From a virus: 30,632 bases of DNA. The stretch spans positions 1-30,632 of the IMG/VR virus record IMGVR_UViG_3300048589_000247, one strand, 5' to 3'. Shown here piece by piece: positions 3,614-25,721 of this stretch. The translations under genes and the position numbers were made by a program. The notes beneath the pieces are model-generated. The model was not told where the DNA came from. It was given only the letters and a program-made list of their open reading frames with translations, and did not search any database. The number at the start of each line of letters is the position of its first letter. Positions within the stretch are counted from its first letter, which is position 1.

Positions 3614-3642
3614 GTGCCTTGCCTCCGGTGATTGATGGTGCC

Positions 3643-3687: not shown

Positions 3688-3701
3688 AACACCCTGATGG
3701 T

Positions 3702-4139: not shown

Positions 4140-4164
4140 CGGCCTTCCCCCTTTCTACACAACG

Positions 4165-4210: not shown

Positions 4211-4245
4211 CTGGGTCTGCCCGGTGGCGTGATTCAGTTATGGTG

Positions 4246-4254
4246 ATTCTAGCA
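4246..4254 (-). promoter_or_regulatory. extended -10 promoter element upstream of the major tail gene
   Basis: The minus strand reads TGCTAGAAT, a TGn-TANAAT extended -10, just after the TAA of the preceding gene. The surrounding 37 bases match the element at 10519 at 33 positions. No good -35 box is visible, which an extended -10 can tolerate. Transcripts would start near 4239 and pass through the hairpin at 4170-4210. Confidence 0.5.
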
Positions 4255-4256
4255 CC

Positions 4257-5236: not shown

Positions 5237-5721
5237 GCGCCACCCCCGGCGGCTGCGGCCCGTTGCTCGATCTCCCTGGCCATCTGCTTGAGCAGGCGCG
5301 GAATCTTCGGCACCGTGTCATCAAGCGCCGGCTGCAGAAACGGCTTTGGCTCGGTGCCCGCGTTCATGATGTGCAGCGCGATCGGCCACCCCGCGCCCTC
5401 ACCCATCCCCTTGCGCCGCGCCCAATCCTCGAGCGGACCAACGGGCGGCATTTTACCGGGCGGCCGTCCGAGTTCGGTGGCGCGGGCGTACTCAAGGTTC
5501 GAGCCGACCTTCACCCAGCGCGGCATGTAGGCGGCATCGACGTCGTAGGCGATGGAATCCCGCAGGCCGCCGCGGTCAACGCGGGCGTGCTCGCGGGCCT
5601 TGCCCTGCACGCTGATGCCCGCCCGGGTGAGCAGGTTGCGGGCCGGGATCGCCACGATGTCCGTGTCGAGCGCCCGGATCGCCTCGTGCAGCCCTTCGAT
5701 GCGAATGACGGCGCGTGCCAT
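5233..5721 (-). CDS. HK97 gp10-like neck / tail-joining protein
   Basis: The product has 162 residues: MARAVIRIEGLHEAIRALD, then NLLTRAGISVQGKAREHARV, a strand with KVGSNLEYARATELG, and a C-terminal PKPFLQPALDDTVPKI. The SNLEYA and KPFLxPAL patterns are hallmarks of the HK97 gp10 family, which bridges head connector and tail. The ATG at 5721 has GGGAGG 5 bases upstream; longer in-frame readings upstream lack a ribosome site and overlap the connector gene. Confidence 0.85.
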   Translation of the reverse strand: MARAVIRIEGLHEAIRALDTDIVAIPARNLLTRAGISVQGKAREHARVDRGGLRDSIAYDVDAAYMPRWVKVGSNLEYARATELGRPPGKMPPVGPLEDWARRKGMGEGAGWPIALHIMNAGTEPKPFLQPALDDTVPKIPRLLKQMAREIEQRAAAAGGGA

Positions 5722-5722
5722 G

Positions 5723-6334
5723 TCAGCCTCCCACGAACCCGACGTTGAAACGCCGGTACGGGTCGAGCAGTTGCCGCACCACCGGATCAACACGCGGCGT
5801 GTACTGCACGGCGTTTTCCTGCACGGTGCCAGCGGTGCCGAACGGCGCTTTGGCCGTCTGATTGAGCCGCACGGCGATCATCAGGCAGGCTTCCGCGATC
5901 GGTTCGGGAATCGACGGCCAGCCCCAGTCGCCGGTGATGCGCACGCCCCGGCGCGTGCGCGGGAATGCCAGCACCGAGTTCGGGTTCACCATGATGCCGG
6001 TGTAGGGCCGTCCGAGTTGCGCGGCGTTGTAGGGTTCGAGGTCGTAATCGTTCGCCGTCCACGTCGTGCTGTACGTGCGGTTGCCGAGATCGTCCGTTTC
6101 CAGCGTCGTCAGGGCGGTCAGGTCGTCAATGAACACCATGTCGCCCCACTCCGCCGTGAAGATGCGGGTGGCGGCGGTGGCGGGGTAGAAGTGCCGGTTG
6201 CAGAGGCCGTCGATTTCGCGGGACGCCGCCTCGATGATCTGTTCGAGCTTGGCGTCGTTGGCGTCGGTGTTCCCTCCGCTGCCGAGCCGGCCTTTCAGAG
6301 CTTCGAGGGTGGTGTAGCCGTTGACGATAGCCAT
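5723..6334 (-). CDS. head-tail connector (gp6-like adaptor)
   Basis: The 203-residue protein begins VNGYTTLEALKGRLG, continues with a helix LEQIIEAASREIDGLCNRHF and TRIFTAEWGDMVFIDDL, and has a conserved GDWGWPSIPEPIAEACLM block. This is the pattern of gp6/gp15-type adaptors that form a ring under the portal. AGGAG sits 5 bases before the ATG. The gene ends 2 bases before the gp10-like gene. Confidence 0.85.
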   Translation of the reverse strand: MAIVNGYTTLEALKGRLGSGGNTDANDAKLEQIIEAASREIDGLCNRHFYPATAATRIFTAEWGDMVFIDDLTALTTLETDDLGNRTYSTTWTANDYDLEPYNAAQLGRPYTGIMVNPNSVLAFPRTRRGVRITGDWGWPSIPEPIAEACLMIAVRLNQTAKAPFGTAGTVQENAVQYTPRVDPVVRQLLDPYRRFNVGFVGG

Positions 6335-6342
6335 GAGGGCTC

Positions 6343-7272
6343 CTAGGCTGGGTTGATCGCAACCATTGCGCCACTGATGATGAAGATATTTCCGGTGGTT
6401 GTCGTTGCAACGGTGCGCGTGCCGGTTGTGCCGGATGACTCAAGAACTTCGAGACTAACGCCTCCGGCATACCCAGCCCCGCTACCAGACTCATCGAACG
6501 CCCCGCCCTCGAATGTCACCGCCGGACTACCGTCGCCTGCGGACACCGCAAGCGTAATGAGTGCCGTGCCAGCAGCGTCCGGGGCGATGGCGTCAAGTTC
6601 CACGGATTGCGTTGACGCCGCAAATCCGCCGAATTCAGGCGTGCCCGCAACGTTGACAATATCGCCGTTGTTGTATCCGCTCACCCGTGCGATCACGTAG
6701 TTGTAGAGCGCCCAATCCGGGTCAGGGGCAAATGGCGATGTTTCGTTGCCGTCAGCAATCCGATACTGCAGGATGTGCCAGTTGTACTCGCCTCCACCCG
6801 CGTCGATCGTCGTGAATCCGTCAAGCGGGGCGGCCAGTTCATCCTCCCAATACACGAGCGCCAGCAACAAGTCGCCCGCCACGATGCCAGTTGGCAGCGT
6901 GACCGCGCCGGGATAGTTCCCTGACACTGAGATGGATTCAATCAGCGGATCGCTGGCCGGCGGCTCATGCTCGTTGACCGCCGTGATGACCGCATTGAAG
7001 CGCGCCGTCGATGGGCGGCACTCGTACCCATCGGTGGCGAACTCCGGCAGCAGCGCCACCGCGCCCCCGTTGTCGTTCAGCGCCGTGATGATCTCGTTGA
7101 GCTTGGCCGTCGATGGTTCCACCTGTTGCCCGTCCGTGTCGAACTCCGGCAGTAACGCGATCTCTGCGCTGGCCGCCGTGTTCGCCGACGCGATCACTTC
7201 GTTGATCTTGGCGGTCGTCGGTTCGACCTGGTAGCCGTCCGCGTCGAATTCGGGCAACAGGGGAATGCTCAT
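6343..7272 (-). CDS. triple-repeat protein with beta-rich C-terminal domain, candidate head fibre
   Basis: The 309 residues have two parts. Residues 5-103 hold three copies of a 30-35-residue unit of the type LLPEFDxDGxxVEPSTAKxN followed by a helix EIITALN. Residues 110-309 are Gly/Thr/Val-rich with strands such as DLLLALVYWED and NIFIISGAMVAINPA, like a jelly-roll or carbohydrate-binding-type sandwich. It is transcribed between the capsid-decoration genes and the connector. Repeats that would suit trimerisation or stalk formation plus a terminal sandwich suggest a capsid or neck fibre. That role is an inference; the family is not one I can name. Confidence 0.7.
   Translation of the reverse strand: MSIPLLPEFDADGYQVEPTTAKINEVIASANTAASAEIALLPEFDTDGQQVEPSTAKLNEIITALNDNGGAVALLPEFATDGYECRPSTARFNAVITAVNEHEPPASDPLIESISVSGNYPGAVTLPTGIVAGDLLLALVYWEDELAAPLDGFTTIDAGGGEYNWHILQYRIADGNETSPFAPDPDWALYNYVIARVSGYNNGDIVNVAGTPEFGGFAASTQSVELDAIAPDAAGTALITLAVSAGDGSPAVTFEGGAFDESGSGAGYAGGVSLEVLESSGTTGTRTVATTTTGNIFIISGAMVAINPA
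6964..7260 (-). repeat. three in-frame repeats coding for LLPEF units
   Basis: Protein residues 5-39, 40-73 and 74-103 each begin LLPEF, share DG at the same place, then P-S/T-T-A-K/R and an Asn, and end in a short helix. The DNA copies differ at many positions, so this is an old duplication held by selection rather than a recent slippage. Confidence 0.85.
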
Positions 7273-7532
7273 CGCTTGCCTCTCACCGCCTTGAACGTCG
7301 AGGTGTCCATTGGCTCCTGAACGCCGCGATCAGCCCGGTTCTTCGCCGCCGTCACCTGACGGTTGCTCGGTGCCTTTTCGACCGCTCGCGCGCCCGATTT
7401 GACCGGTTCGAGGGTTCCCGGGGCGTCCCGGTTGATCGCTTCGGCCTCGGCCTCAGTCAACTCAACCACGTCGCCCTTCGCGCCCTCGCCGTAACTTGAG
7501 CGGTAGCGTTGGGTGAATCGGTACTCAGCCAT
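7269..7532 (-). CDS. small head-region protein, function unknown
   Basis: The 87 residues start MAEYRFTQRYRSSYGEG and contain KGDVVELTEAEAEAINRDAP, a pattern often found in short proteins next to phage capsid genes. The C-terminal half is basic and Lys/Arg-rich. The ATG overlaps the stop of the preceding gene (TAATG) and its own stop overlaps the fibre gene start at ATGA, so all three are translationally coupled. Confidence 0.6.
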   Translation of the reverse strand: MAEYRFTQRYRSSYGEGAKGDVVELTEAEAEAINRDAPGTLEPVKSGARAVEKAPSNRQVTAAKNRADRGVQEPMDTSTFKAVRGKR

Positions 7533-7957
7533 TAGATGCCGTCCATGTAGACGATGCACCAGACGACGGCCAGCAGGTCGGCGGTCGTGCCGTTCCAGCC
7601 CGCCGCCGTGGTCAGCTCGCAGCCGAGCCGGGTGCCCGCCGTGCCGGACGCCTTGCCGCGCGGAACCCGCAGGTAGTGATTGGTGCCGGTGGTGATCGAG
7701 AGCGTGGTGTCGGCGTCTTCGGTGCCGTCGATGGTCGCCCCGACCGTGATGCTGCCGGCGGAACCGGCCACGGTCAACGACGTCGAGACGCCGACGATGT
7801 CGTAGGGAAACGGGATGCAGTAGCCGTCCACGGTGCCGCCCTCTTCGGGTCCGACCGCCGGCAGCTGCACGTCCGTCTGGGAGGCCGCCAGCGCGTCCTG
7901 CCCAAACACGAACGGGACCAGCTGGCCCTTACTGGTATCGAGCGTAATCTGCGTCAT
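7532..7957 (-). CDS. candidate capsid decoration protein
   Basis: This 141-residue protein is the first gene after the major capsid gene, where decoration proteins such as lambda gpD usually lie. It is Gly/Thr/Val-rich with alternating strands (VGVSTSLTVAGSAGSITVG, TTLSITTGTNHYLRVPRG) and ends in a hydrophobic LLAVVWCIVYMDGI. No motif identifies it by itself. AAAGGGG lies 8 bases upstream of the ATG, a strong site fitting a high-copy product. Confidence 0.55.
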   Translation of the reverse strand: MTQITLDTSKGQLVPFVFGQDALAASQTDVQLPAVGPEEGGTVDGYCIPFPYDIVGVSTSLTVAGSAGSITVGATIDGTEDADTTLSITTGTNHYLRVPRGKASGTAGTRLGCELTTAAGWNGTTADLLAVVWCIVYMDGI

Positions 7958-7980
7958 GATTCACCCCTTTCCGGGCGGAA

Positions 7981-8001
7981 CCGGGGGCGAGCTGCCCCCG
8001 G
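7981..8001 (-). other. perfect GC-rich stem-loop downstream of the capsid gene
   Basis: CCGGGGGC and GCCCCCGG form a perfect 8-bp stem around a 5-base loop in the gap between the capsid stop and the next start. There is no U tract on either side. It may be an mRNA-stabilising or processing hairpin for the capsid message. Confidence 0.45.
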
Positions 8002-8014
8002 CCCGAACTCATCC

Positions 8015-9451
8015 CTAGATGGTCACGTTGTAGGCCACCGCGGCGGCTTCGATGCCGCTGGCCGCGCCGGTCGGGCTGAAGCGCCCGAAGCCCATGCGCA
8101 TGCTGGCAACCAGGCGGTTCTGATCGGTCGCCGGCACCCGCTCGGTTTCGAGCTTGAGGCGACGTCGCCAGCCGGTCACGAAGCCGGTGCGGTTGAAGGC
8201 CACCACCTGCCCCTTCGTGTTATTGCCGCCGGTGGTGCTCACCTTGCCGTCGGCTTCCGTCTTCGGCACGACGATCGAGCTGACAACCGGGTGCCCGAGA
8301 ATGGCGGCCACCTGGCCGTTGAGGAGGTTCGTGCCGCCGTTGTAGATGCGGGCGTTGAGCACCGGATCGAGCGCGGCGATGGCGTCGGCGGTCTGCGGAT
8401 CGGCCACGTAGATCAGGTCCTGCCCATTGGTCGGGTGGCCCCAGTCGTAGTGGTAGGTCGGATCGAGCATCAGCCCCTTGAGGCCGTGCAGGGTCGCCAG
8501 ATCGATCGCCCCGGCCACGTTGTCGCCGTTGGCGGTGTTGTCCACCAGCGCCGCATGGCGGATGCCGTCGGCGGCCAGGTAGTGCTTGGTGTCGGCGGGA
8601 TCGGCGTCATCGAGGTTGATGTTGCCGGTGCCGGCGTTCGTGGTGTCGCCGTTCATGACGATGCTGTCGGAGTAGTAGCCGACCGACCGGGCGAGCTGCT
8701 CCTGAATGAGCGCCACGAACGGAACGATCGAATCTTCTTCGAGCTCGCCCGACCACATCTGGTGGGCGATGAACTTGTAGGCCGTCACGGCGACGCGGTT
8801 CGAGCCGGTCTTCGTGGTGTTGTAGTTCGAGCTGTTGTTCGCGGTCGATTCGCCCACGAACAGGAACTCGGGGATATCGGCCAGCACCGGCAGGTAGGCC
8901 ACCGGAGCCGTCATTTCGAACGACGGGATCAGGCCGAGGATGCGGGATTCGTTACGCGCCCCGGCCCAGATGCTGCCGACGTACTGGGCGCCGACGAGCT
9001 GCGAGCCGAACCCGCTTTCGGCGGTGTCCATCGCGCGGTGCGCAGCTTCCCACTGGGCGCGGTTGTGCCTGGTGACGCGCGGGAAGAGATCGTCGATCGC
9101 CTGCCGGTCGATCCGCTTGATCTCCTCCTCGCTCATGTAGACGGCGTCGGAATAGGCCTTGAAGGCCGCTTCGAGTTCCGGGGACGGGCCGGAACCGCCG
9201 CTGCGCTTGTTCGCCATCATGATGTCGAACAGGAACTCGATGCCGGTCGGAGTGACTCCCCAGCGGGCGAACTTGCCGCCGACCACCGGCTCGTCGGATC
9301 CGAACCGCATCTTGCGCACGAAGTCGGCGTCGCTCTTGAGCAGGTTGAACCGCTCATCGACGATGCTGCGAATCTTGTCTTCGGACGTGTTCTCGCCGAT
9401 GGCCTTGAGGCGATCGGCCACATCCTGCATGAACTGCTCACTGACGGTCAT
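8015..9451 (-). CDS. major capsid protein (HK97 fold)
   Basis: The 478-residue protein follows the prohead protease directly, as HK97-type capsid genes do. Residues 1-110 are helical and charged, like the N-terminal scaffold (delta) region. The rest shows HK97-fold features: ARNESRILGLIPSFEMTAPV, a strand-rich YKFIAHQMWSGELEED, VGYYSDSIVMNGD (spine-helix-like), and a late GHPVVSSIVVPKTEADG block followed by ETERVPATDQNRLVASMRMG. The ATG at 9451 has AAAGGA upstream; a longer upstream reading overlaps the protease and is not supported. Confidence 0.88.
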   Translation of the reverse strand: MTVSEQFMQDVADRLKAIGENTSEDKIRSIVDERFNLLKSDADFVRKMRFGSDEPVVGGKFARWGVTPTGIEFLFDIMMANKRSGGSGPSPELEAAFKAYSDAVYMSEEEIKRIDRQAIDDLFPRVTRHNRAQWEAAHRAMDTAESGFGSQLVGAQYVGSIWAGARNESRILGLIPSFEMTAPVAYLPVLADIPEFLFVGESTANNSSNYNTTKTGSNRVAVTAYKFIAHQMWSGELEEDSIVPFVALIQEQLARSVGYYSDSIVMNGDTTNAGTGNINLDDADPADTKHYLAADGIRHAALVDNTANGDNVAGAIDLATLHGLKGLMLDPTYHYDWGHPTNGQDLIYVADPQTADAIAALDPVLNARIYNGGTNLLNGQVAAILGHPVVSSIVVPKTEADGKVSTTGGNNTKGQVVAFNRTGFVTGWRRRLKLETERVPATDQNRLVASMRMGFGRFSPTGAASGIEAAAVAYNVTI

Positions 9452-9465
9452 GGGGTCTGGTCCTT

Positions 9466-10410
9466 TCAGGCGGTGAGGCCGAGCGCGGTCCGCCACTTCA
9501 TTTCGTCGAATGTCCGTTCGTCGTCGTCCGATTCCTCGGGTTCCTTTTTGGCGCGATCCAGCACCGAATTGATGAGCGTGATGGCCTGCGCGAGATCCTC
9601 CCGGTTCTTGCGGGACAGGACCGCGCCGGCCCGGTTGCTCAACTCGATGAAGCGATCGGCGTGCAGATCGGGCTCGCCTTCGAGGAATCGGCCCCGCAGG
9701 GTGTCATCGTCGAACGCCTGCAGCTCAGCCGCCGTCGCGAACTCGGGCGGGGTGCGCTTGTGGCGCGCGTAGTCGCGGGCGAGCCGGTCATAGGCCGCAC
9801 GCCGGTCATCGTCCGATCGCGGGCCGTAGGGCTGAAACAGGTCCACCATCGCGGCGGATGCCTCCTCCCAGGACGGCCTAGCGGACTGTTCGGCGTCGGG
9901 TGCCGGGGAATCGTCGTCAGGGATCGCCGCCAGCTCGAGCGCCAGCGACCGGAAGAGCTTGCGCTGCCGTTCGGCCAGCGCGTTCGGATCGGCGGGCACG
10001 GGCACGCCGGAGATCTCGAGCAGCTCGGCTTTGGTCGCCCGGGGCGCGTCCTGCCCCTGCGACGGCTGATAATCGATGACGTTGAACCCGACCGAGACGG
10101 CGTTCAGGATGCCGTTGCGGTACTTGCGCTCGATGCGCAGCGCCTCGGGGTCGTCCTGATCGAACACCACATCGGCGATCAGGTTGTCGCCGTCAATGGC
10201 GATGGACTTGACGGTGCCGATCGGCGGCTCGAAGTAGTTGTGCGCCCACAGGAAGACCGGGTTGCGCTTGAAGTTGTCGAGCTGCCAGCCCGCCGCTTCC
10301 ACGATCATGCCGTCGCGCACCACGTCGGACGTGGAGGCGATGAAGCGGATCGCGTCACCAGGGCGGGAGTCGTCGGCGCGTTCGGTATAGGCTCGGATGT
10401 ACTCAGGCAT
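9466..10410 (-). CDS. prohead (maturation) protease with long C-terminal extension
   Basis: The 314 residues begin with an HK97-type U35 serine protease. The likely catalytic His57 lies in FLWAHNYFEPPIGTV, Ser106 in NAVSVGF, and a typical AELLEISGVPVPADPNA block spans about 128-144. Residues 150-314 are an acidic, helical, charged extension, much longer than a minimal protease, that could serve as built-in scaffold. The start is the ATG at 10410 with AGGGG upstream; the longer frame would run through the terminator hairpin. Confidence 0.88.
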   Translation of the reverse strand: MPEYIRAYTERADDSRPGDAIRFIASTSDVVRDGMIVEAAGWQLDNFKRNPVFLWAHNYFEPPIGTVKSIAIDGDNLIADVVFDQDDPEALRIERKYRNGILNAVSVGFNVIDYQPSQGQDAPRATKAELLEISGVPVPADPNALAERQRKLFRSLALELAAIPDDDSPAPDAEQSARPSWEEASAAMVDLFQPYGPRSDDDRRAAYDRLARDYARHKRTPPEFATAAELQAFDDDTLRGRFLEGEPDLHADRFIELSNRAGAVLSRKNREDLAQAITLINSVLDRAKKEPEESDDDERTFDEMKWRTALGLTA

Positions 10411-10434
10411 TGGGTGCGCCCCTTTGAGCAAACG

Positions 10435-10483
10435 AAAAAGCGGCTTGTCGGTGAATCGGTGGTCCGATCCCTGACAAGCCGCT
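10435..10483 (-). terminator. 11-bp hairpin with U tract in the leader of the protease gene
   Basis: On the minus strand AGCGGCTTGTC pairs perfectly with GACAAGCCGCT (10473-10483 and 10439-10449) and runs into TTTTT. The loop holds a second stem ATCGG/CCGAT. This has the form of a strong intrinsic terminator, yet it lies between a promoter-like -10 (10519) and the protease ribosome site. Confidence 0.8.
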
Positions 10484-10518
10484 GAGCACACGCCCGGTGG
10501 CGAAATTGAGTTATGGAG

Positions 10519-10527
10519 ATTCTAGCA
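10519..10527 (-). promoter_or_regulatory. extended -10 promoter element upstream of the protease gene
   Basis: The minus strand reads TGCTAGAAT followed by CTCCATAAC, almost identical to the copy at 4246. It shares CTAGAATCTCC with the early promoter at 28139. It lies about 35 bases before the 11-bp hairpin. No clear -35 is seen. Confidence 0.5.
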
Positions 10528-10534
10528 CAGTGCG

Positions 10535-10741
10535 TTAGCTCGCCTTTCGGTCATGGCAGCGGCACGATTCCTCACGTTTGCGGCGTGGCACGATCGAGCG
10601 CGGCATGTCGAGATAGTCCTCGATCGCGCCCAACTGCATAATCAGCGCCTGTCGCGTAATCATCCAGAGACGGCGCTCGTGTTCCGATCCCTCAGGCACG
10701 CCGTTTTCGTCGATAATCCGCAACGTCTCAATCGCGTCCAT
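10535..10741 (-). CDS. small phage protein, function unknown
   Basis: The 68 residues begin MDAIETLRIIDENGVPEG, continue with a helical RLWMITRQALIMQLGAIEDY and end in a basic tail with CRCH. The ATG at 10741 has GGAGG 6 bases upstream; the ATG two codons earlier directly abuts GGAGG and is unlikely. It overlaps the preceding gene by 14 bases. No family recognised. Confidence 0.65.
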   Translation of the reverse strand: MDAIETLRIIDENGVPEGSEHERRLWMITRQALIMQLGAIEDYLDMPRSIVPRRKREESCRCHDRKAS

Positions 10742-10937
10742 CGGCATCCTCCGGGCATTCGACCTCGTATCCGCTTTCCGTGCGCGTGATACGGCAATGA
10801 CGCTTCCAGCGATCAGGAATCGGCTGACCTTGCGCGGGGTTCATGAACGCCTCATGCGTCCACCGGGCAGCGAACTCTAGGTAGCCGATCGGCTTCACAT
10901 TCTTCGCAACGATGTACGGGGCGCGTTCCTCGCTCAT
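10728..10937 (-). CDS. small phage protein, function unknown
   Basis: The 69-residue product starts MSEERAPYIVAKNVKPIGYL and contains EFAARWTHEAFMNPAQGQPI and an acidic C-terminus. The start overlaps the portal stop at ATGA, and GGAGG lies 4 bases upstream, so it is probably translated with the portal. It has no cysteine cluster or membrane segment. No family recognised. Confidence 0.6.
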   Translation of the reverse strand: MSEERAPYIVAKNVKPIGYLEFAARWTHEAFMNPAQGQPIPDRWKRHCRITRTESGYEVECPEDADGRD

Positions 10938-13036
10938 GCATCCTCCATGTCGATATCGAGCACCGCCGTCATGGTGCAGCGGCACTGAATGTCCTCGGAT
11001 GCAACGCCGATCAGCCCCGGCCCCTGTCCACGGTTCCCGCCGACATTGAAGTCGTCGTCCAGCCCCACGATCTGCCCGTGCGCGGCAACGTGACTTTCGC
11101 GGGTCCGGTCATCGAGCGCCGACAGCCACCGCTTGCCCCCCACGACGCCCGATTGCTTCCAGCCCAACAGGTCCGCGTTCGAGTGCGCGATGTTCGATTC
11201 CGTGCGCGCGATGGTTTCGGCGCTTGACCGGATGCGATCGCCCATGACGTCGTTCACCCGGTCGGCCAGCTTGTCCACCGATTCCCCCGCCTCGAACCCC
11301 TCGCCGAGCGACTCCTTGAGCGCGTTCCAGGTGGTTTCGTTGACTTCGCGGGCGAACCGCTGCACCTGACGTTCGAGCGCGTTGATGACGTTCGGGTCGA
11401 ACACGTCGAACGCCGTTCCGATCCCGAGGTCGTCGAGCGCCTCATCGCCCGCCTCGCCGATGATGTCGCGCAGCACGGGCCGCAGTTCGGTGCTGAAGGT
11501 GCGGATCCAGCGCGGCAGGTCGAACGGCTCGTCAACGAAGTCCGCTTCATCGCGCTTGACCGACCGGCTGCGCAGCTGCGCCAGAATGGATTGCTTCTGA
11601 CGGCGCATCAGGTCGCCCGTCACCTTGCCGATCCGGGCGGCACGCGGCTCCTGGCGGCGATCAGCCCGCTCCATGAAGGCGCGGTGCTCCTGACTGCCGT
11701 ACTCAAGGGCGCGGGTCATGCCGGGCGCGATCATGCGGGGTTCAGCTTCGGGCGGCTCCTCTACCTCGATCTCGGACGGCGGCAACATCGGCGGTGGCTC
11801 TTCTTTCTCGCCGTCCTTGACCGGAGTCAGACCCATCGGCGCCCACCACACGTCGCCCCACGGCAACGGGTCGCGGCCCTGCTCGGACAGGTAGCCGTTG
11901 ATGGTCATGACGCCGCGCTCGATCTGTTCCTTGTCGATGGCCCACTTCTCGCGCTCAGCTTCCTGGAGCACCAGCACGTTCGCCGTGTCGAACTCGATCA
12001 CATCGGCCTGGCCGGGAAAGAGCGGCAACAGTTGCTCGGTGAGTTCGTCGGCAATGAATTGCGCCTCGGGGATCAGGGTGCGCAACCACAGGCCCAGCTC
12101 CGCCGCCTTGACGTTCTCATAGGTCCGCTGTCCGCCGATCAGATCGAGCGGCACCCCATAGGCGGTGGCGATCTCTTCCTTGCCCCATCCGAGCGTACCG
12201 AGGAATTCGGCGTCCTTCGGCGTGATGCTCACCGATTGCAGTTGCGCTTCATACCGCAGGACAGCGATGCGGTGCGCCTTGTCCGCACCCCGGAACCGAC
12301 GGCTGAACGCTTCCTCGATCTGCTTGCCTTGCTCTTCGGTGAGTTGCGTGCCGGGTTTCGGGCTGACGATGCCGGAGACCTGGTTGCCGTTCTTGAACAG
12401 CATCGCGTTGGAGAGCATGGCCGCGCTGGAGGTATCGGCGGCGATCATGCCCGCCTTGAGCGGGGTGAGGCTGCGATATTCGTTCATGACGTTCGGGTAG
12501 CGGAACCAGACCACTTCCTCGCGGTCAAAGTGGATCGGCGCGCCACCTCCGGGCGGGTCGTACTCGAATCCGTCGATATAGCCCTTGCCGGCCTTGACGC
12601 GCATCCGTTCCGGGTTCACCCACCAGATTTCCCGCGGCACGCGACCGGAGCGTCCCTGCCCCCGTTCCAGCACCCAGAACGCGCCCTGATCGAACACGCC
12701 GAGACTCATCTCGGTCATTTCGATCAGGCGGCGAAAGGTCCAGTAGGGGTTGACCTTGTGCAGCAGTTCGTACAGGTCGCCGCTGGTGACTTCGGTGCGC
12801 TTGCCCGACGTCGCCACCTTGTACAGGCGCGGAGTCAGGCTGGACAGCATTTGCGCACGCAAGCGGTTGCAGGCGTAGACGGTATTGTTCGTGTGCAGGT
12901 AGGACGCCGGGTCCGTGGTGCGCCCGAACGTGTCGGTTTGATCGTAGTAGTAGACCGGCTCGATCATGTTGTTGGCGACGGTGAAGGACCGGGCGCCGCT
13001 CATCAGGCCGTCAAGGAATCGGGTTAGAAGCGACAT
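10934..13036 (-). CDS. portal protein fused to a MuF-like (gp7-type) domain
   Basis: The 700-residue protein combines two virion proteins. Residues 1 to about 420 are an HK97-family portal: NNTVYACNRLRAQMLSSL, then EIWWVNPERMRV, LTPLKAGMIAADTSSAAML, and GWGKEEIATAYGVPLDLIGG. After a Pro/Glu-rich linker (about 420-450), the C-terminal part is MuF/SPP1 gp7-like: ETIARTESNIAHSNADLL, then SALDDRTRESHVAAHG and a terminal IQCRCTM. The portal forms the DNA gate; MuF domains are minor head proteins carried inside the capsid. Starting at the ATG at 13036 gives an AGGCGG site 8 bases upstream. Encoding both as one chain is less common than separate genes. Confidence 0.92.
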   Translation of the reverse strand: MSLLTRFLDGLMSGARSFTVANNMIEPVYYYDQTDTFGRTTDPASYLHTNNTVYACNRLRAQMLSSLTPRLYKVATSGKRTEVTSGDLYELLHKVNPYWTFRRLIEMTEMSLGVFDQGAFWVLERGQGRSGRVPREIWWVNPERMRVKAGKGYIDGFEYDPPGGGAPIHFDREEVVWFRYPNVMNEYRSLTPLKAGMIAADTSSAAMLSNAMLFKNGNQVSGIVSPKPGTQLTEEQGKQIEEAFSRRFRGADKAHRIAVLRYEAQLQSVSITPKDAEFLGTLGWGKEEIATAYGVPLDLIGGQRTYENVKAAELGLWLRTLIPEAQFIADELTEQLLPLFPGQADVIEFDTANVLVLQEAEREKWAIDKEQIERGVMTINGYLSEQGRDPLPWGDVWWAPMGLTPVKDGEKEEPPPMLPPSEIEVEEPPEAEPRMIAPGMTRALEYGSQEHRAFMERADRRQEPRAARIGKVTGDLMRRQKQSILAQLRSRSVKRDEADFVDEPFDLPRWIRTFSTELRPVLRDIIGEAGDEALDDLGIGTAFDVFDPNVINALERQVQRFAREVNETTWNALKESLGEGFEAGESVDKLADRVNDVMGDRIRSSAETIARTESNIAHSNADLLGWKQSGVVGGKRWLSALDDRTRESHVAAHGQIVGLDDDFNVGGNRGQGPGLIGVASEDIQCRCTMTAVLDIDMEDA

Positions 13037-13047
13037 AGGATCACCGC

Positions 13048-14352
13048 CTAAAAAACGAGCTGGCCGGTCAGGCCGCCGTTGAGCCAACCCACGATGTACC
13101 GAACTGCATCGAGGTAATGAAAACTGGCCTTATCCTCAATGACTTCGGTCGGTTCGCCGTTCGCGTCGAGCACCCGGCTGTACGTGTTGAGTTGGTCAAT
13201 CAGTCCGGCACAGGATCGGAACACGAACAGCTCGTTGCGCTGAAACGAGCCATAGACGCGATTGATACCAACTTCCACCTCTTTGACGTCCGGCTCGGCG
13301 ATCGGAAAACCAGCCTGCCCGAACTCCTGCCGCCACTGACCCTCACTGTGCGACCCGCCGACGACTTTCAGCGGGCGACCGTGTTTGGCTTCCCATGCCG
13401 CCGCGTGCTGTTTGGCCGTGCGACCACCGGCGAGATATTCCGCGTAGACGTAGTTCCGCTTTGTTGCCGGTTCCTGTGCGATCCAGATGCCGGCCGTGTT
13501 GACGCCACCGAAGTCAGCACCCTGATAGCGGTCCCACTCATCGGGAATCGCGAAGTTGTCAACGATGTGCAGTGCCGGATCAAAGCAGTCATAGATCAGC
13601 CCGGCTGGGCGTTGGAATCGACCGAGATAGAACATCTCGTATTTCCAGCGCGGCATGTCCCGCTCAGCCCGTGCGAGTTCTTCGGGCGGGAACTTCGGGT
13701 TTGCCGTAGACGGAAAGTTGATGACATCAATCGTTGGGTGATTCTGCTTTGCTGCAACCCACGGATCGTGAAACGTTTGCTTGAGCCACCCAAGATCATA
13801 CGGGGTCGTCGTGATAAGCGCCCGGCCCTGATGGATCGACAAACGGCGTTGGATCGCTTCCCACGATGCCCGCTTGAATGTCTTTTGTCCGGCCTCGTCT
13901 AGCCACGCTGCCTTCGCCGTCATTGACTCCAACGATTCAGGATCAGCCGCATAGCCGAAATAGACATTTGTCGGCTGCGCTTGCGATTCGCCCCACAATC
14001 GCTGTTCACCTGCGGTCGAGACGGTGAATGACCGAATAGGACTACTTCGGTATTGACCAATACTGAGTTGCGTTTCGAACAACCGGCGGAATTCGGGCAA
14101 CGCCTTCACTTCTAGCAGTGGGAACGTCGGCGTGACCACGAGGTAGTCGCCCGCGCCGCGATCGATCATCTCTTGCAACAGCCAATGAGGCCCGAACGAT
14201 GTTTTACCTGATTGTGTCCCGGCCAGCACGACAACGTTGCGTTTGCGGGATCGCAGCGCCTGCCATTGTCCGGCATGAAAATAGCGATCCAGTCCTCCGT
14301 CCGGCGAGACGACCGCAAGCTCAACAGGCGGGTGTGCGGTTGCAGCAACCAT
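13048..14352 (-). CDS. terminase large subunit
   Basis: The 434-residue packaging motor has a Walker A loop AGTQSGKTS at about residues 44-52, a Walker B AAWLDEAG at about 148-155 with the Asp-Glu pair, and a coupling-type TTTPYD. A C-terminal nuclease domain follows, with QGADFGG (acidic residue near 280) and HYLDAVRY (acidic residue near 415). The ATG overlaps the stop of the small subunit gene at ATGA and AGGTGA lies upstream. The portal gene starts 12 bases after its stop. Confidence 0.95.
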   Translation of the reverse strand: MVAATAHPPVELAVVSPDGGLDRYFHAGQWQALRSRKRNVVVLAGTQSGKTSFGPHWLLQEMIDRGAGDYLVVTPTFPLLEVKALPEFRRLFETQLSIGQYRSSPIRSFTVSTAGEQRLWGESQAQPTNVYFGYAADPESLESMTAKAAWLDEAGQKTFKRASWEAIQRRLSIHQGRALITTTPYDLGWLKQTFHDPWVAAKQNHPTIDVINFPSTANPKFPPEELARAERDMPRWKYEMFYLGRFQRPAGLIYDCFDPALHIVDNFAIPDEWDRYQGADFGGVNTAGIWIAQEPATKRNYVYAEYLAGGRTAKQHAAAWEAKHGRPLKVVGGSHSEGQWRQEFGQAGFPIAEPDVKEVEVGINRVYGSFQRNELFVFRSCAGLIDQLNTYSRVLDANGEPTEVIEDKASFHYLDAVRYIVGWLNGGLTGQLVF

Positions 14353-14741
14353 CAGTCGTCACCTGGCACATGGTCACGGATCATCGTTACAACGAGCGGC
14401 CCGCCGTCTGCTCCCGAGTGTTCGATCTGCTGTTTGTCGCCGTACACCTTCCGGTTGTGCGACTTGAGCAAGAAGATGGCCGCCGTAATGAATTGCGGGT
14501 GCTTTGGATTCCGGGCGACTTCAAAGACTTTTGTTTCAACTTCATCAATGCCCGCGGAAAGCCCAATATCCCGCGCTGCCGTGCACCGCTCTCCGAACTC
14601 GGGGTAATCCATTCGCCATCGCTGAAACGTCTTCGCGGAGATCCGGCATCGACGCGCAGCCTTGCCATACCCACCCAACTCTTCAAGAGCCTCGATGAGC
14701 GCCGCCTCTTTTTCAGGTGAATACTTTGAGACGTTTGGCAT
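14352..14741 (-). CDS. terminase small subunit
   Basis: The 129 residues begin with a helix-turn-helix-like segment (ALEELGGYGKAARRCRISAK then TFQRWRMDYPEFGERC). A helical oligomerisation region and a C-terminal tail follow (FLLKSHNRKVYGDKQQIEHS) that is typical of small terminases contacting the large subunit. The HTH should bind the packaging site (cos or pac), which I cannot locate. The ribosome site is weak (GGTGAG). It is the first gene after the third promoter/hairpin cassette. Confidence 0.85.
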   Translation of the reverse strand: MPNVSKYSPEKEAALIEALEELGGYGKAARRCRISAKTFQRWRMDYPEFGERCTAARDIGLSAGIDEVETKVFEVARNPKHPQFITAAIFLLKSHNRKVYGDKQQIEHSGADGGPLVVTMIRDHVPGDD

Positions 14742-14750
14742 CAGCTCACC

Positions 14751-14804
14751 AAAAAAGAAAACGCCGGAGACAAGAGACCTGCATGGTCACCGTTGCCTCC
14801 GGCG
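14751..14804 (-). terminator. hairpin with long U tract in the leader of terS
   Basis: CGCCGGAG pairs with CTCCGGCG on the minus strand (14797-14804 with 14762-14769), followed by TTTTCTTTTTT. The loop includes GACC-ATGCA-GGTC. It is the third hairpin of this design, again between a -10 element and a structural gene. Confidence 0.75.
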
Positions 14805-14826
14805 CGGGTCCGCCGTTATTGAGCGA

Positions 14827-14835
14827 ATTGTACCA
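14827..14835 (-). promoter_or_regulatory. extended -10 promoter element upstream of terS
   Basis: The minus strand reads TGGTACAAT, an extended -10, just before the TAA of the upstream gene ends at 14838 and followed by a CTCAAT shared with the protease cassette. It would be the main late promoter at the head of the packaging genes. A matching -35 is not evident. Confidence 0.5.
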
Positions 14836-14837
14836 CG

Positions 14838-15077
14838 TTATGGTGTTTCATCGGGAAGGAACGTTCGTCGCACGCTATCCACGTCGCTCCGCACTTCGAT
14901 GGTGTTATCCGGCATCGTCGGGTCGATCTTGATGGCGATGTATTCGCCCCGCTTCATCACCTCATACCCGGCTTCGTGGAGCGCCGCGAGAATGGCGTCG
15001 GCAACGTCGATCCGCCATCCCCATGCGTTATCGTGCTTTTCCAGTTGTTCCCCGATCACGTCTCTCGGCTCACTCAC
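14838..15077 (-). CDS. small phage protein, function unknown
   Basis: The 79-residue product uses a GTG start with GGAGG 6 bases upstream and overlaps the preceding gene by 8 bases. It reads VADAILAALHEAGYEVMKRG and then a strand region, EYIAIKIDPTMPDNTIEV, suggesting a small alpha-beta fold. It is the last gene before the terS cassette. No family recognised. Confidence 0.65.
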   Translation of the reverse strand: MSEPRDVIGEQLEKHDNAWGWRIDVADAILAALHEAGYEVMKRGEYIAIKIDPTMPDNTIEVRSDVDSVRRTFLPDETP

Positions 15078-15537
15078 CGTTGCCTCCTAGCTTGGCGTCG
15101 ATCTTGTCCCGAACTCGGCCAAACGTCTGTGCCATTGCGAAGTCATAGTGGTTCATGTTTCCGCGAATACCGCCGTCGTTCGCGTCAATCCACGCCCGCA
15201 GCTCCCGCAGCCCCGCGTTCCGGGCATCGGCGTGCAGGGCTTCGACACGAGCGCGGGCGGCGTGGAACGTGCCGTCTACGTCCTCCCACGAGTCCCAATC
15301 GCGCATCTGCCACGTACACTCGGCATCAGCCGCAAGCCCGCACAGTTCATCCAGCGCCGCCGCGAACTCCGCATCCGTTGTCGCATCCGGTGCGGCGTTC
15401 AGCGCGGCTTCGAGCGCGGCACGCATGTTCGCCAGCCCTTCATCGGTCCATTCCCACCTCCTCCATGTGGTCGAGTTGTTATGTTCTTTGTGGTAGGCGG
15501 TAAGCGCCGCGCTCACCATCTGATCCGTAACCTGCAT
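15070..15537 (-). CDS. helical phage protein, function unknown
   Basis: The 155 residues are Ala-, Trp- and Asp-rich: VTDQMVSAALTAYHKEHN, then LANMRAALEAALNAAP and several Trp residues in AECTWQMRDWDSWEDVDG. A helical bundle is likely. GGGAGG lies 7 bases before the ATG at 15537, which overlaps the preceding stop. A GTG one codon earlier is less well placed. No enzyme motif. Confidence 0.65.
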   Translation of the reverse strand: MQVTDQMVSAALTAYHKEHNNSTTWRRWEWTDEGLANMRAALEAALNAAPDATTDAEFAAALDELCGLAADAECTWQMRDWDSWEDVDGTFHAARARVEALHADARNAGLRELRAWIDANDGGIRGNMNHYDFAMAQTFGRVRDKIDAKLGGNGE

Positions 15538-21290: not shown

Positions 21291-21700
21291 GCCGCTCTCC
21301 GTTCCGGGCGGCGCACGTAGCGCCCCTTGAATGCGTCCCAGCGGACGTCGTATTCGGCTGCCGGCTTCCAGCGGTCCGGCATCTCCAGTTCGTCGACGTT
21401 CCACGCCCGGCAGCTGAATGGCTCCACGCCCGCCCGGATCACCGCACCGGCACTGTTGGTCTCGGTGCGGTGCGGGTCGAGGATGACCAGCGGCCTGGTG
21501 TCAAGGCGGTATCGCTGCATCTGGTTCCACGTCACGATGTCGCCGGGCCAGAACGGGGTCTGCCAGACGTGCCGGGTGACCACGAACAGGACGTTGCAGC
21601 GGTACTCGGATGAGTCCGGTTCCACGAGTTTCCCGGTGTGGTCGATGGCGTACTCGGGCCGGGTCAGGTGCCGGCAGGTGGCGCAGGATCGTTCGGTCAT
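21287..21700 (-). CDS. Cys-containing phage protein, function unknown
   Basis: The 137 residues begin MTERSCATCRHLTRPEYAI with C-x2-C, a third Cys near residue 35 and a fourth in FSCRAW near 97, enough for one zinc site. The middle holds VVTRHVWQTPFWPGDIVTWN. It is encoded directly after the ATPase gene with an ATGA overlap. Possibly a helicase partner, but nothing in the sequence proves it. Confidence 0.6.
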   Translation of the reverse strand: MTERSCATCRHLTRPEYAIDHTGKLVEPDSSEYRCNVLFVVTRHVWQTPFWPGDIVTWNQMQRYRLDTRPLVILDPHRTETNSAGAVIRAGVEPFSCRAWNVDELEMPDRWKPAAEYDVRWDAFKGRYVRRPERRAA

Positions 21701-23814
21701 GCCTCGCCTCCCTCGACCGGGTAGCGCAGGTGCACAACGTTGCGGTTCGCGCCCATGAGGCGGCGCCGGACCTTGAAGGTTTCGCGGGCCTCGTCACGGG
21801 TCACGATCAGGCCGCGCTCCCAGAACCGCTTGAGCAGGGTGTCCGGGGTGAGCGGGATCTCCGTGCCGATCGCAACCGCCCGCTTCTGGATGATCTGGTA
21901 GGCGGCGTTCCACTCCAGGTAGACCGCGCCGTCGCCGGTGGTCCAGCCGATGCGGGATCCCTGCGGGCGCCACTCCGGATCGGTCGGGTTGCCGTTGACG
22001 GTGGTGCCGCGGTCAACCCGCCGCCAGCCCCACGCTTCCGGGTCGGAGGGCGCGTCTCCGTTGCTGTCGACCAGGTGCGCCTCCCCCGAGACCAGAATGG
22101 CGTCGAGCGCCTCCAGGAACTGCGTGACCGGATTGGCGGACCGCAGGTGTTCGGCCTGCGCTGCGATCATCCCGCGCAGCTCCTGTTCGGCACTGGCGGC
22201 CAGCTTGGCGAGTTCGTCCTCGGTCCAGCCGATCGAGCCGAGGTAGTCGCTCAGCATGGAGTAGGCGGCCATCAGGTGCGCCGCCGTGGTGACGGTGCGC
22301 GGGTGCGCGGCGTGATCGGTCTGGAGCGCCAACCGCATCGCCTCGAAGCGGGCCGTGAAGTCGGCGATCCGGGCCGCGTAGTCGCCCACGAACCAGCGGA
22401 TGAACGCCGCCATTGCCGAGGCGTGGACGCCGGCGTGGCCGCGATCCTGCGCCTCGGTCAGCGCCCCGTCCTTGAACCGGACGCTCCCCTTCTTGAGTTC
22501 GATGATGCTCATGCGGGCCCGCAGGCTCTCGCCCTTCGGGATATCCTCGCCGGTCATCATGACCGTGCCGCGCGGCGGCTTCTGGGCGCGCAGCTGCGCC
22601 TCCCGGGTCAACCGCGTGCGGCCCGACTGGTTGCCGAGCGCGCGCCCGATCCGTTCGGCGGTGGCGTCCGCGTTGATCGCCTTGTTGCGCTGGAAGTCAT
22701 CGACGACCAGCAGGGCGTCCTTGAGCAGGTAGGCGATCATCTCGATCGAGTTGCCCGTGCCGCTGAAGCTGGCCGGCAGGTGATCGGCGTCGAGCTTGGC
22801 CCCGAACAGGCTCAGGAACAGCGCCACCAGCGTGGTCTTGCCGAGCCCGGTGCCGCCCATGATGTAGATGGCGAAGTCGGACGGCCCGAACACGCTCCGC
22901 ACCGCCGCACCGAGTAACGGGATCGTCACCGACCGGTCAGCCAGGTCGAGCAGCTCCATCGTGGCCCGCCAGGCCGCGCGCTCCTCGTCGCCCGTGGGTG
23001 GGGCCGGCAAGTGGTAGCGGTTGAGCGGCGACTCCAGGTGCACCGCGATCTCGTCGCGCAGCCCGTCGCCGGTAATGGCGCCAGAGGCCGTCAGGTAGCC
23101 CATCTGGCCGTCCTCGAGCTGCCGGACGCCCGTGTGCCCGAACACCAGCTTCCGGACCGGGATCGGCTTGTTGAGCTGGATCGCGGTGGCGACGTGCTCG
23201 AGGTGGCGCGAACCCGGGTAGACGACCGCCTGGGAGCCGAGGGCTTCCGTGATCCACTCCTGCACGTTGGCGAATTTCGCCGCCGGCACGGTGGCCGTCT
23301 TGCGGAACTCGCCCTGCCAGCAATCGATCTCGTACTCGCGGCGATCACCGATGCCGTCACTGATCGTGATATCGGCGTCGATGTGGGCGCCAAAGTTGCT
23401 GACCGGTTGCTCGACCGTGCGCGGTGGGGTACTGGGAATGGTCCGGGTGTAGAAGATGCCGCGATCGTCGACCGTGTAGATCGGCGCGCCGGCACTGACG
23501 CTATCGGTGCCGGGCGGGGCGATCAGGTCGATGTTCGTCGCGATCGCCATCAGCTCGACCCGCACGACATCGAGGTCGACGTCCACCCGCTTGCCCAGCG
23601 CCTTGATGAACCGGGCCCGCGCCAGGTCGTTCTTCACGTCGATCGCGTCGAGGTGGCGCACGGCGCCGTCGATCTCGACGTGAATGACGTTGCGGCTGTA
23701 GCTGGCCGGCTCGACCCGGTAGCGGTTTCCCGACGGGGTGAACGCCACCATGCCGTCGTCGTCGATCGTGTAGTCGATGGCGGGCGCGTCCGGCGCGGTG
23801 CGGTCAGGCGACAC
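21697..23814 (-). CDS. large P-loop ATPase, putative replicative helicase (DUF927-like)
   Basis: The 705-residue protein has a GTG start with AAAGGAG 8 bases upstream. It has a Walker A motif at about 320-328 (GGTGLGKTT), Walker B at about 367-374 (ALLVVDDF), and a later polar segment GTVMMTGEDIPKGE that fits a sensor. The 300 residues before the P-loop and the domain after it resemble DUF927-type helicases found in phages and plasmids. Next to a CHC2 primase gene and an iteron block, a role in origin opening or as replicative helicase is likely. It overlaps the primase stop by 11 bases. Confidence 0.82.
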   Translation of the reverse strand: MSPDRTAPDAPAIDYTIDDDGMVAFTPSGNRYRVEPASYSRNVIHVEIDGAVRHLDAIDVKNDLARARFIKALGKRVDVDLDVVRVELMAIATNIDLIAPPGTDSVSAGAPIYTVDDRGIFYTRTIPSTPPRTVEQPVSNFGAHIDADITISDGIGDRREYEIDCWQGEFRKTATVPAAKFANVQEWITEALGSQAVVYPGSRHLEHVATAIQLNKPIPVRKLVFGHTGVRQLEDGQMGYLTASGAITGDGLRDEIAVHLESPLNRYHLPAPPTGDEERAAWRATMELLDLADRSVTIPLLGAAVRSVFGPSDFAIYIMGGTGLGKTTLVALFLSLFGAKLDADHLPASFSGTGNSIEMIAYLLKDALLVVDDFQRNKAINADATAERIGRALGNQSGRTRLTREAQLRAQKPPRGTVMMTGEDIPKGESLRARMSIIELKKGSVRFKDGALTEAQDRGHAGVHASAMAAFIRWFVGDYAARIADFTARFEAMRLALQTDHAAHPRTVTTAAHLMAAYSMLSDYLGSIGWTEDELAKLAASAEQELRGMIAAQAEHLRSANPVTQFLEALDAILVSGEAHLVDSNGDAPSDPEAWGWRRVDRGTTVNGNPTDPEWRPQGSRIGWTTGDGAVYLEWNAAYQIIQKRAVAIGTEIPLTPDTLLKRFWERGLIVTRDEARETFKVRRRLMGANRNVVHLRYPVEGGEA

Positions 23815-24352
23815 GGACCCGCTCCTTTGGCGCGTTGACCCGGTAGCGGTCCGGCGTCCGGCCCATGCACTCCAATAGGGTCGTGCACGCCTCGTGGAAT
23901 GACTGGCGCGGGCGCAGCAGCTTCACGAAGCTGAGCACGTCGCCGCCGCCGTGGCACCCGTAGCAGAAGAATGAATCGGAGTCGGGATAGACCATCAGCG
24001 ACGGCGTTGAGTCGTCACCGGGGTGCGCGTAGAGCGGGCAACTGGCCTTGAACCGCTTCCCCTCCCGGACCAGCTCGACGCCGCCCAGCAGCGCCACGAC
24101 GTCCGTGATCCGGACATCGGCCTTGATGCGGTCGACATCGAAGCGGCCAAGCCGTCGGTGCAGCTGCACCACCGGGTCCGATCCGCGCTCGCGCCGCTCG
24201 ATCTCCCGTCTGGTGGCATCGAGCCAATAGGCCAGCAGGGACCGTGTGTGTGCATGATCGGTTTCCGCCAGCTCCCACGTGTAATGCCGGAACCGCGCCT
24301 CCAGGGCGTCGATCGGCTCCTCGCGAAGCTGGGCAACGAATGGATCTGCCAT
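23804..24352 (-). CDS. CHC2 zinc-finger primase-type protein without TOPRIM
   Basis: The 182 residues carry a DnaG-type CHC2 finger with Cys105, His110, Cys130 and Cys133 (FKASCPLYAHPGDDSTPSL, then DSFFCYGCHGGGDVLSFV). The usual preceding helix IKADVRITDVVALLG is present. The catalytic TOPRIM and RNA polymerase domains of DnaG are absent, and no TOPRIM is seen in the neighbouring ATPase. It may recruit host primase, or act with the ATPase. The ATG at 24352 is chosen because upstream in-frame sequence runs through iterons and lacks a ribosome site. Confidence 0.8.
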   Translation of the reverse strand: MADPFVAQLREEPIDALEARFRHYTWELAETDHAHTRSLLAYWLDATRREIERRERGSDPVVQLHRRLGRFDVDRIKADVRITDVVALLGGVELVREGKRFKASCPLYAHPGDDSTPSLMVYPDSDSFFCYGCHGGGDVLSFVKLLRPRQSFHEACTTLLECMGRTPDRYRVNAPKERVRVA

Positions 24353-24370
24353 CAGAACGTCCAATCCGGC

Positions 24371-24683
24371 TTGTCGGGCGATTTGTCGGGTGTTATCGGT
24401 CAACCCGACAACGCTATGGGCCGAGAATCTTCGGAGATATCCGCCTATTTCATGGGTGTTGTCGGGTTTGTCGGGTTTGTCGGGTGTAGTTCTCGCGCGT
24501 CTACAACAACATTTCGCATACGCCTTCGAGAAGATGTGCAAGATGATGTTGCAGTAGGGGTTGATATATGCCCGACAAACCCGACAAACCCGACAAATGG
24601 GGCAGAAACGCCCGGAATCACCGGGCGTTTCGACGCCTGAATGTTGTCGGGTGCCCGTTGCAACCCGACAAATTGCCCGACAA
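24371..24683. repeat. mirror-symmetric array of twelve 9-bp iterons, candidate replication origin
   Basis: The unit is TTGTCGGGT (or C at the last place). Forward copies start at 24371, 24383, 24459, 24468, 24477 and 24644. Reverse copies start at 24403, 24570, 24579, 24588, 24663 and 24675. The order is ++- +++ --- +--, which equals its own reverse complement, and every pair is centred on 24527-24528. Two triplets are perfectly tandem. The central 84 bases hold an imperfect inverted repeat (24501-24512 with 24546-24557). Its place between primase and SSB genes fits an iteron origin. Confidence 0.85.
24606..24630. terminator. 10-bp perfect hairpin within the iteron region
   Basis: AAACGCCCGG and CCGGGCGTTT flank a 5-base loop. 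On the minus strand it lies 62 bases past the SSB stop and ends in GTTTC, a weak U tract. It may terminate the SSB transcript or take part in origin structure. Confidence 0.5.
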
Positions 24684-24691
24684 CGGGCCGG

Positions 24692-25276
24692 TTACAGGTC
24701 GACGTCGAACAGCGCCGCGCCATCGTCGGCCGCCGCGACCGCCGCCGGTTGCGGAGCCGGGGCCGCCTGGCCACCGATCGGGCCGTCCACGAGCTCGTCA
24801 TACGGCCGGGCCATGACGAACTTCGTCTTGATGTAGTTGGCCTTCTGTTCGTTCGAGGTCGTGACGAAGAATGGCTTGCGCATGATCTCGGCGGGATCGA
24901 AGTCCTGCTTGCCGACGATGTCCTGGTTGGTGGCCGCGGCCTTGATCTTGCCGAGGTTGGTGCCCTTGGTCACGCTCGTGGTGACCGAGATCAGGAACCG
25001 TTCGCCCTTGCGGGGACCGGCCAGGTTCTGGAACTCGAGCTGGACCATCTCGATGGTCTTCTTGGTGATCTCGCCCGTTTCCTCGTTTTTCTCGTCGGTG
25101 TCGAACGTGTAGGGCTTGGTGATGCCAACGATCCAGGCGAGCTTTTCGCCCGGCGGAGGCGTCGGGTAGTCGTCGTTGGTGGTCGTGACCGCCTCGATCG
25201 ATCCGTCCTTGTTGAGGCGGAGGATCTCGAAGGTCCCGTAGTTCGCGGACTGAATGCGGAATCCGAACCCACTCAT
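24692..25276 (-). CDS. single-strand DNA-binding protein (OB-fold-like, acidic tail)
   Basis: The 194 residues include FRIQSANYGTFEILRLNKDG, then EKLAWIVGITKPYTFDTDE and MVQLEFQNLAGPRKGERFLI, a run of strands consistent with an OB fold. The C-terminus changes to an Ala/Pro/Gln-rich linker ending DDGAALFDVDL, an acidic hydrophobic tip like those of SSB proteins that recruit partners. Its place beside origin, primase and helicase supports the call. AAAGGGA precedes the ATG. Confidence 0.72.
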   Translation of the reverse strand: MSGFGFRIQSANYGTFEILRLNKDGSIEAVTTTNDDYPTPPPGEKLAWIVGITKPYTFDTDEKNEETGEITKKTIEMVQLEFQNLAGPRKGERFLISVTTSVTKGTNLGKIKAAATNQDIVGKQDFDPAEIMRKPFFVTTSNEQKANYIKTKFVMARPYDELVDGPIGGQAAPAPQPAAVAAADDGAALFDVDL

Positions 25277-25278
25277 GG

Positions 25279-25452
25279 TTAGCTGTTCCCTTTCTCTGCC
25301 TGTGGCTCGCTGCCTGTGGCCTCGTTTTCGTCTCGGTGGTTCGTGTCATCAGTGGGAGCCCAGCCGGCGAGCGGCGCCAGCAGGATCGCGCCAAACAGGA
25401 AGAGCGCGATCACGTAGAGCATCTCGCCGATCGTGGGCGCCCAGAAGCTCAT
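25279..25452 (-). CDS. small single-pass membrane protein, 57 residues
   Basis: The frame starts MSFWAPTIGE and has a hydrophobic segment at about 11-30 (MLYVIALFLFGAILLAPLAG), followed by a polar, acidic tail ending QAEKGNS. Its start overlaps the stop of the preceding gene at ATGA and its stop lies 2 bases before the SSB start, so it fits the operon exactly. A membrane role (holin-like, exclusion or anchoring of replication) is possible but unproven. Confidence 0.68.
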   Translation of the reverse strand: MSFWAPTIGEMLYVIALFLFGAILLAPLAGWAPTDDTNHRDENEATGSEPQAEKGNS

Positions 25453-25721
25453 TCGGACCTCACCTCCTTCAAGGTCGTGAGCCGCTCATGCTTGGCGGCG
25501 TGGAGATCGAGGTGCAGCCGCATGTTGTCCTGGCGCAGCGCATCGATCTCGGCTTGCTGCTTGTCGTACATCCGCTGCCCGAACCCGCGTTCGTAGCCGA
25601 GCGATTCGCGCCACGCGGCGTTGCAGCGGTCGAAGCGCCGTTGCCAGCGCCGGTTGAGTTCAACGGTGGCGAACGCGATCCCGGCGATCCCGCCGATTCC
25701 GATCCAGACGGCGGTATCCAT
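25449..25721 (-). CDS. membrane-anchored coiled-coil protein
   Basis: The 90 residues start MDTAVWIGIGGIAGIAFATV, a hydrophobic N-terminal anchor, then a basic stretch (RRWQRRFDRCN) and a coiled coil (QQAEIDALRQDNMRLHLDLH). The layout resembles Rz-like spanins or small membrane-tethering proteins. Lysis genes are not otherwise seen here, and the early-operon position argues against a spanin. Start and preceding stop share TGATG. Confidence 0.62.
   Translation of the reverse strand: MDTAVWIGIGGIAGIAFATVELNRRWQRRFDRCNAAWRESLGYERGFGQRMYDKQQAEIDALRQDNMRLHLDLHAAKHERLTTLKEVRSE

Follow-up and report, generated by a model that had tools for sequence, protein, structure and literature searches.

The window, that is, the whole stretch of 30,632 bases analysed here, is a virus record in which a portal and a terminase are present and from which capsid and tail-type ORFs can be read. 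The gap at 24353-24691 between two of its minus-strand genes is occupied by a dyad of twelve exact copies of TTGTCGGGY, six on each strand, in the order ++-+++---+--, mirrored within 1 bp (Table 1). This count and order, as given in the initial annotation, were reproduced by an exact recount, and its sums of 49054 or 49055 for symmetric pairs of positions, its 47-base spacers on both sides and its 84-base centre agreed on recalculation. The mirror had also been called perfect, which holds for the six mirrored pairs but not for one spacer within the outer groups (11 versus 10 nt), the sole flaw. When the intervals and orientations of the twelve sites were shuffled, all six pairs were mirrored in 2 of 100,000 trials. 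The iterons at 24383 and 24403 form a convergent pair at two helical turns. A search of the 30.6-kb window gave no further exact copies outside the array, and near-matches to the unit in the window included no second, crr-like array. The hairpin in the right spacer has no counterpart at the exact mirror position on the left, and the terminator listing has none here.

Table 1. Coordinates of the dyad, its parts and the neighbouring genes in the window.
Feature	Position	Strand	Remark
P0003, 705-aa DUF927/SF3-like helicase, proposed iteron-binding initiator	21697..23814	-	family match
P0001, 182 aa, CHC2 (DnaG-type) zinc finger only	23804..24352	-	first gene past dyad
Whole 12-iteron dyad	24371..24683	.	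axis between 24527 and 24528
Left outer group: + 24371, + 24383, - 24403	24371..24411	.	
47-nt spacers	24412-24458 and 24597-24643		
Left inner group: three tandem 9-bp iterons TTGTCGGGT (24459, 24468, 24477), facing centre	24459..24485	+	
Central 84 bp, putative melting region	24486..24569	.	
Right inner group: three tandem 9-bp iterons (24570, 24579, 24588), facing centre	24570..24596	-	
Perfect 11-bp hairpin in right 47-nt spacer, no T-run	24605..24631	.	read from sequence
Right outer group: + 24644, - 24663, - 24675	24644..24683	.	
P0002, 194 aa, acidic C-terminus	24692..25276	-	upstream of dyad

The central 84 bp has a GC content of 45%, compared with 64% for the window. The position 24488 ranks 190 of 30,551 for low stability over the whole record, and the locus at 24500 is the third among its separated stability minima. 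Apart from the units themselves, mirror matches are found at 23 of 42 positions in the halves of the centre (P about 0.001) and at 17 of 47 in the 47-nt spacers (P 0.06). The symmetry of the dyad is mainly positional, which suggests either selection on the positions of the sites or a much-decayed inverted duplication.

The start of P0003 overlaps the end of P0001. The dyad heads this co-directional operon, with the helicase two genes downstream. The array had been placed between a primase and an SSB gene; the flanking genes at 23804-24352 and 24692-25276 are indeed there, but neither label was borne out. P0001 carries the zinc finger but lacks a primase's TOPRIM core; no complete primase was found among the proteins scanned. 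P0002 had zero family matches, and its structure model is all-beta at low confidence. A separate IMG/VR record, 3300048930_000114, has a portal identical to that of the window; its estimated extent (about 937-15309 of the window) ends before the origin.

P0003 matched DUF927 above the cut-off. A P0003-family profile built from 21 members matched two proteins over the ATPase: 8tch, the SaPI 'Pathogenicity island protein', at E 6.7e-8, and 5dgk, the SCCmec helicase, at E 4.6e-7. Judged by these profile matches, the P0003 family is that of two known self-loading initiator helicases, SaPI Rep and SCCmec Cch. Cch carries DUF927 and is kin of SaPIbov1 Rep (literature), and SaPI Rep binds its iterons via the C-terminal domain (PMC7581432). 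The C-terminal ~70 residues of the P0003 family align, with helices followed by strands; from this pattern the segment may, with low confidence, be a winged helix (model pLDDT 33). Scans of viral and genome contig proteins with P0002 or P0003 alone gave zero matches, as did a protein scan with query A3; query A6 was productive. Distant P0003 relatives occur on plasmids of actinobacteria, and many of these plasmids are linear. In Rhodococcus plasmids, L075 among them, the ATPase domain of the P0003 family is part of ~1,800-aa proteins annotated 'telomere-binding protein', and L075 has a small GGGGAGT array upstream.

The closest phage relative is L191 (IMG/VR 3300048589_000303, 38 kb), in which the gene order is as in the window. 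Identity to the window is 47% over 561 aa for the helicase, 78% for TerL, 91% for the DNA methyltransferase and 32% for the CHC2 protein, which is at the equivalent place. As in the window, an array, here of TTGTCGGCA, precedes the CHC2 gene. Read in the window's direction and with one mismatched site included, its intervals are 20,55,9,9,94,9,9,45,21,10, compared with 12,20,55,9,9,94,9,9,55,21,12 in the window; the series 20,55,9,9,94,9,9 is identical in both. One outer gap in L191 is shorter by 10 bp, about one helical turn, and the counterpart of the window's first site was not seen at the position where the contig ends. No alignment was found between the central spacers of the two phages (P 0.54) and a weak one for one of the 47-nt spacers (P 0.017); the L191 symmetry score for exact sites gave P 0.08. 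Because the layout was kept while the sequence diverged, this comparison is the strongest evidence that the layout is functional. Homologous phages that had lost the units or the symmetry would have counted against the initial annotation, and the opposite was seen in this one close homologue. A scan for a 9-bp tandem followed by a ~94-bp interval recovered the L191 contig again, and its other matches had neither a family helicase nor a fuller array. Elsewhere in the window, 16377-17470 matches L217 in a VRR-NUC and a DNA methyltransferase that are >90% identical over most of the length; the helicases of these two phages are about 45% identical, which indicates strong mosaicism.

P0003-family profile members were found in 10 of 396 Acidobacteriota genomes, 12 of 392 Planctomycetota, 1 of 398 Pseudomonadota, 4 of 381 Clostridia and 6 of 386 Actinomycetota. 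With an array defined as a 7-mer occurring at least 6 times, in both orientations, within a 1-kb piece, arrays were present in 15 of 77 helicase-adjacent pieces (the window counted among the 15) and in 0 of 243 other pieces (P 1.7e-10). About two thirds of the P0003-family loci had no array in the scan for arrays. The array units vary and are often related (TTGTCGGG, ATGTCGGG, TTGTCGGC, TTGTCAGC, TTGTCACC, TGTCACGG, TGGTCGG), and in most bacterial relatives the array follows the helicase gene immediately on its 3' side. The family helicases examined are fused to differing primase-type parts (Prim-Pol, DUF3854), and tyrosine-type integrases are encoded on four of the relatives' elements.

The helicase was the only window protein detectable in the 13 relatives' loci with arrays, although in the bacterial relatives its presence is by construction, since it was the search query, with L101 the only exception. 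This Bryobacteraceae locus came, amid dispersed repeats, from a helicase-blind, DNA-only search for the inverted unit that covered about 85,000 genomes. It has eleven TGTCGGGT units in mixed orientation, which start within the 3' end of a P0003-family gene; the encoded protein shares 35% identity with P0003 across 570 aa. Other matches of the inverted-pattern scan were set aside as unrelated: dispersed repeats in Streptomyces and Acidobacteriota, and the viral contigs L078-L081, which had no P0003 match. As far as seen, the helicase-array type of origin spreads across bacterial mobile elements of several phyla.

The early HTH proteins at 17275, 17981 and 27920 had been put forward as the binders of the iterons. 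None of them recurs among the 13 array-bearing relatives, and the helicase is therefore the likelier binder. It is unlikely, in our estimate, that the dyad is an origin read by another protein (the early HTH proteins 17275/17981 or a host initiator) with P0003 loaded secondarily. The phage does encode HTH/GcrA-like proteins, and lambda-type origins, in which a separate protein recognises the iterons and the helicase is loaded secondarily, offer a precedent; the array loci, however, keep the helicase and not the HTH proteins, and the P0003 family is one of self-loading initiators. A cluster of operators, at which a regulator on the twelve sites would control the replication operon, is very improbable. 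The dyad does sit just upstream of the co-directional CHC2-helicase genes, and symmetric sites fit dimeric regulators. Against this, no sigma-70-like promoter was found in 23700-25700, the units are missing from the repressor region and the remaining phage, the arrays of the relatives are mostly downstream of the helicase gene, and the weak centre is exactly conserved in length.

Global symmetry is not general across the P0003 family. In L123, L126, L128, L129, L132, L124, L151 and L158 symmetry was no greater than in shuffles, and L130, L133, L181, L155 and the helicase-less L104 were symmetric with P values of 0.0003-0.014, uncorrected for about 14 tests. At the end of its P0003-family gene, L130 has a 12-site near-palindrome of TTGTCGGC (5503-5758, order --+---+++-++) in which the inner triplets point outward. 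L104, a 7.5-kb contig of a Planctomycetia MAG on which no P0003-family helicase was found, has a near-palindrome made up of fifteen TTGTCGGG-like sites, with 6 mirrored pairs (3037-3363, P 0.0003). In the Clostridia MAG L100 (5312-5408), about 64 bp of very AT-rich DNA separates two TTGTCGGG pairs that point towards each other and adjoin a DUF5906 (P4-alpha-like) helicase gene, a different helicase branch. The TTGTCGGG repeats of L082, L086, L094 and L098 (Acidobacteriota) are dispersed, often 18 bp apart, with no obvious tie to replication genes.

The intervals between neighbouring sites were compared over 13 arrays. The commonest spacing of same-orientation neighbours was 9 bp (29 of 67); convergent neighbours were 20-22 bp apart in 10 of 24 cases, and divergent neighbours 41-47 bp apart in 13 of 26. 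With GGTGAACA taken as plus, an orientation chosen by the analyst that leaves one free bit, the annotated ori of P4 reads +10+11+22-43+10+ and its annotated crr -9-43+18+14-, so the P4 origin also fits 9 tandem, ~21 convergent and ~43-45 divergent. Because P4 alpha belongs to the D5/DUF5906 branch, the spacing rule, if real, covers two helicase branches. A helical-period test was suggestive and did not single out 10.5 bp. We give somewhat less than an even chance to the proposal that the origins of DUF927 and D5/P4 self-loading helicases share one spacing code (9 tandem, ~21 convergent, ~43-45 divergent, larger gaps near whole helical turns) that places two rings mirror-wise, with the window the fullest case and its layout conserved to the base pair despite change in iterons and spacers.

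These spacings also bear on an RNA reading, in which the inverted repeats would form a long mRNA hairpin between the two genes as an attenuator or processing site. Folding of the transcript is far above that of shuffles (z -11), but any inverted repeats give strong folding. There was no Rfam match, the arrays of the relatives are mostly of mixed orientation without a global hairpin, and the clustering of spacings about 21 and 43-45 bp suits DNA binding. We consider it extremely improbable that the dyad acts as RNA.

The symmetric array, its weak centre, the family of the helicase, the pairing of helicases with arrays and the layout of L191 together make it very probable that the dyad is the replication origin of the phage, of the P4/PICI (self-loading helicase) type, with P0003 the candidate iteron binder. 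An initiator-bound origin with a melting centre had been proposed at the outset; the low-stability centre, the Rep/Cch-family helicase, the arrays in relatives and the L191 layout uphold it, but not the binders then named. We infer binding by P0003, assembly of a double hexamer and bidirectional firing. P0003, made from the operon that the dyad heads, would bind the TTGTCGGGY iterons, probably via its C-terminal winged-helix-like segment, as suggested by SaPI Rep and Cch2. The inner triplets, opposed across 84 bp of weak DNA, would position two mirror-image hexamers, one per half, which would melt the centre and then depart in opposite directions. The outer groups may serve as extra symmetric anchoring sites, and priming would then fall to the CHC2 protein together with a primase of the host or of another source. 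The way in which self-loading helicases form double rings on origins is a structural question for which a natural origin of full symmetry, with a layout kept to the base pair in a distant relative, offers an ideal substrate.

The dyad had been regarded as unusual on the grounds that iteron origins usually have one orientation. That generalisation holds for plasmids but not for the P4/PICI type; mixed-orientation iterons around an AT-rich stretch are standard in P4/PICI origins (PMC6092414). An inverted layout is therefore nothing unusual in itself, and it is the complete 12-site dyad that stands out. As far as seen, four things are new: the complete dyad, the exact conservation of its layout in a phage that has diverged, the occurrence of this origin type across phyla and in full phages, and the spacing rule; no literature on the complete dyad, its conservation, the phylum spread or the spacing rule was found in a search that most subscription journals lay outside. 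A classical iteron-plasmid or lambda-type origin was rejected, given iterons in both orientations and no Pfam match to the Rep/O family in the early proteins scanned.

The nearest known systems are the PICI/SaPI origins (SaPIbov1 Rep, SaPI5 Rep and E. coli PICIs, with Rep or Pri-Rep), whose helicases are of the same broad family as P0003. PICI origins have two iteron sets around an AT-rich region (PMC6092414), and in PICI/SaPI as in the window the iteron sets surround an AT-rich melting region with a primase-type gene adjoining; the helicase C-terminus binds the iterons there (PMC7581432, PMC6092414), and its counterpart in the window is predicted to do so. In the window, too, two sets of short iterons lie on either side of a low-stability region, and a Rep/Cch (DUF927) helicase is encoded with the origin. 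PICI/SaPI are satellites without full virion genes and have ori 3' of rep, whereas the window is a tailed phage, and in both it and L191 the origin is upstream of the CHC2-helicase genes. Because of its own virion genes and the position of the origin upstream of the helicase gene, the element is not a PICI; an origin directly 3' of the helicase, a PICI trait absent here, does not define the wider type. The complete 12-site mirror dyad also distinguishes the window from PICI/SaPI. The ori and crr of P4 resemble the window in having short (8-bp type 1) iterons in both orientations, but P4 has two separate sites without a full dyad, one 3' of alpha and one elsewhere, where the window has one full dyad, and P4 alpha is a TOPRIM + D5_N/DUF5906 helicase, unlike the DUF927 protein P0003.

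At SV40 and papillomavirus origins, two hexamers of a self-loading SF3 helicase assemble on inverted sites. This resembles how the window is proposed to work and does not imply kinship; the DNA-binding domain of those helicases is N-terminal (PMC7581432), and that of P0003 is predicted to be C-terminal. SCCmec Cch is a DUF927 protein, and 5dgk is one of two solved relatives of the P0003 family. The origin of SCCmec Cch2 has three direct iterons, and replication of SCC is unproven (PMC7581432), compared with the twelve mirrored iterons of the window.
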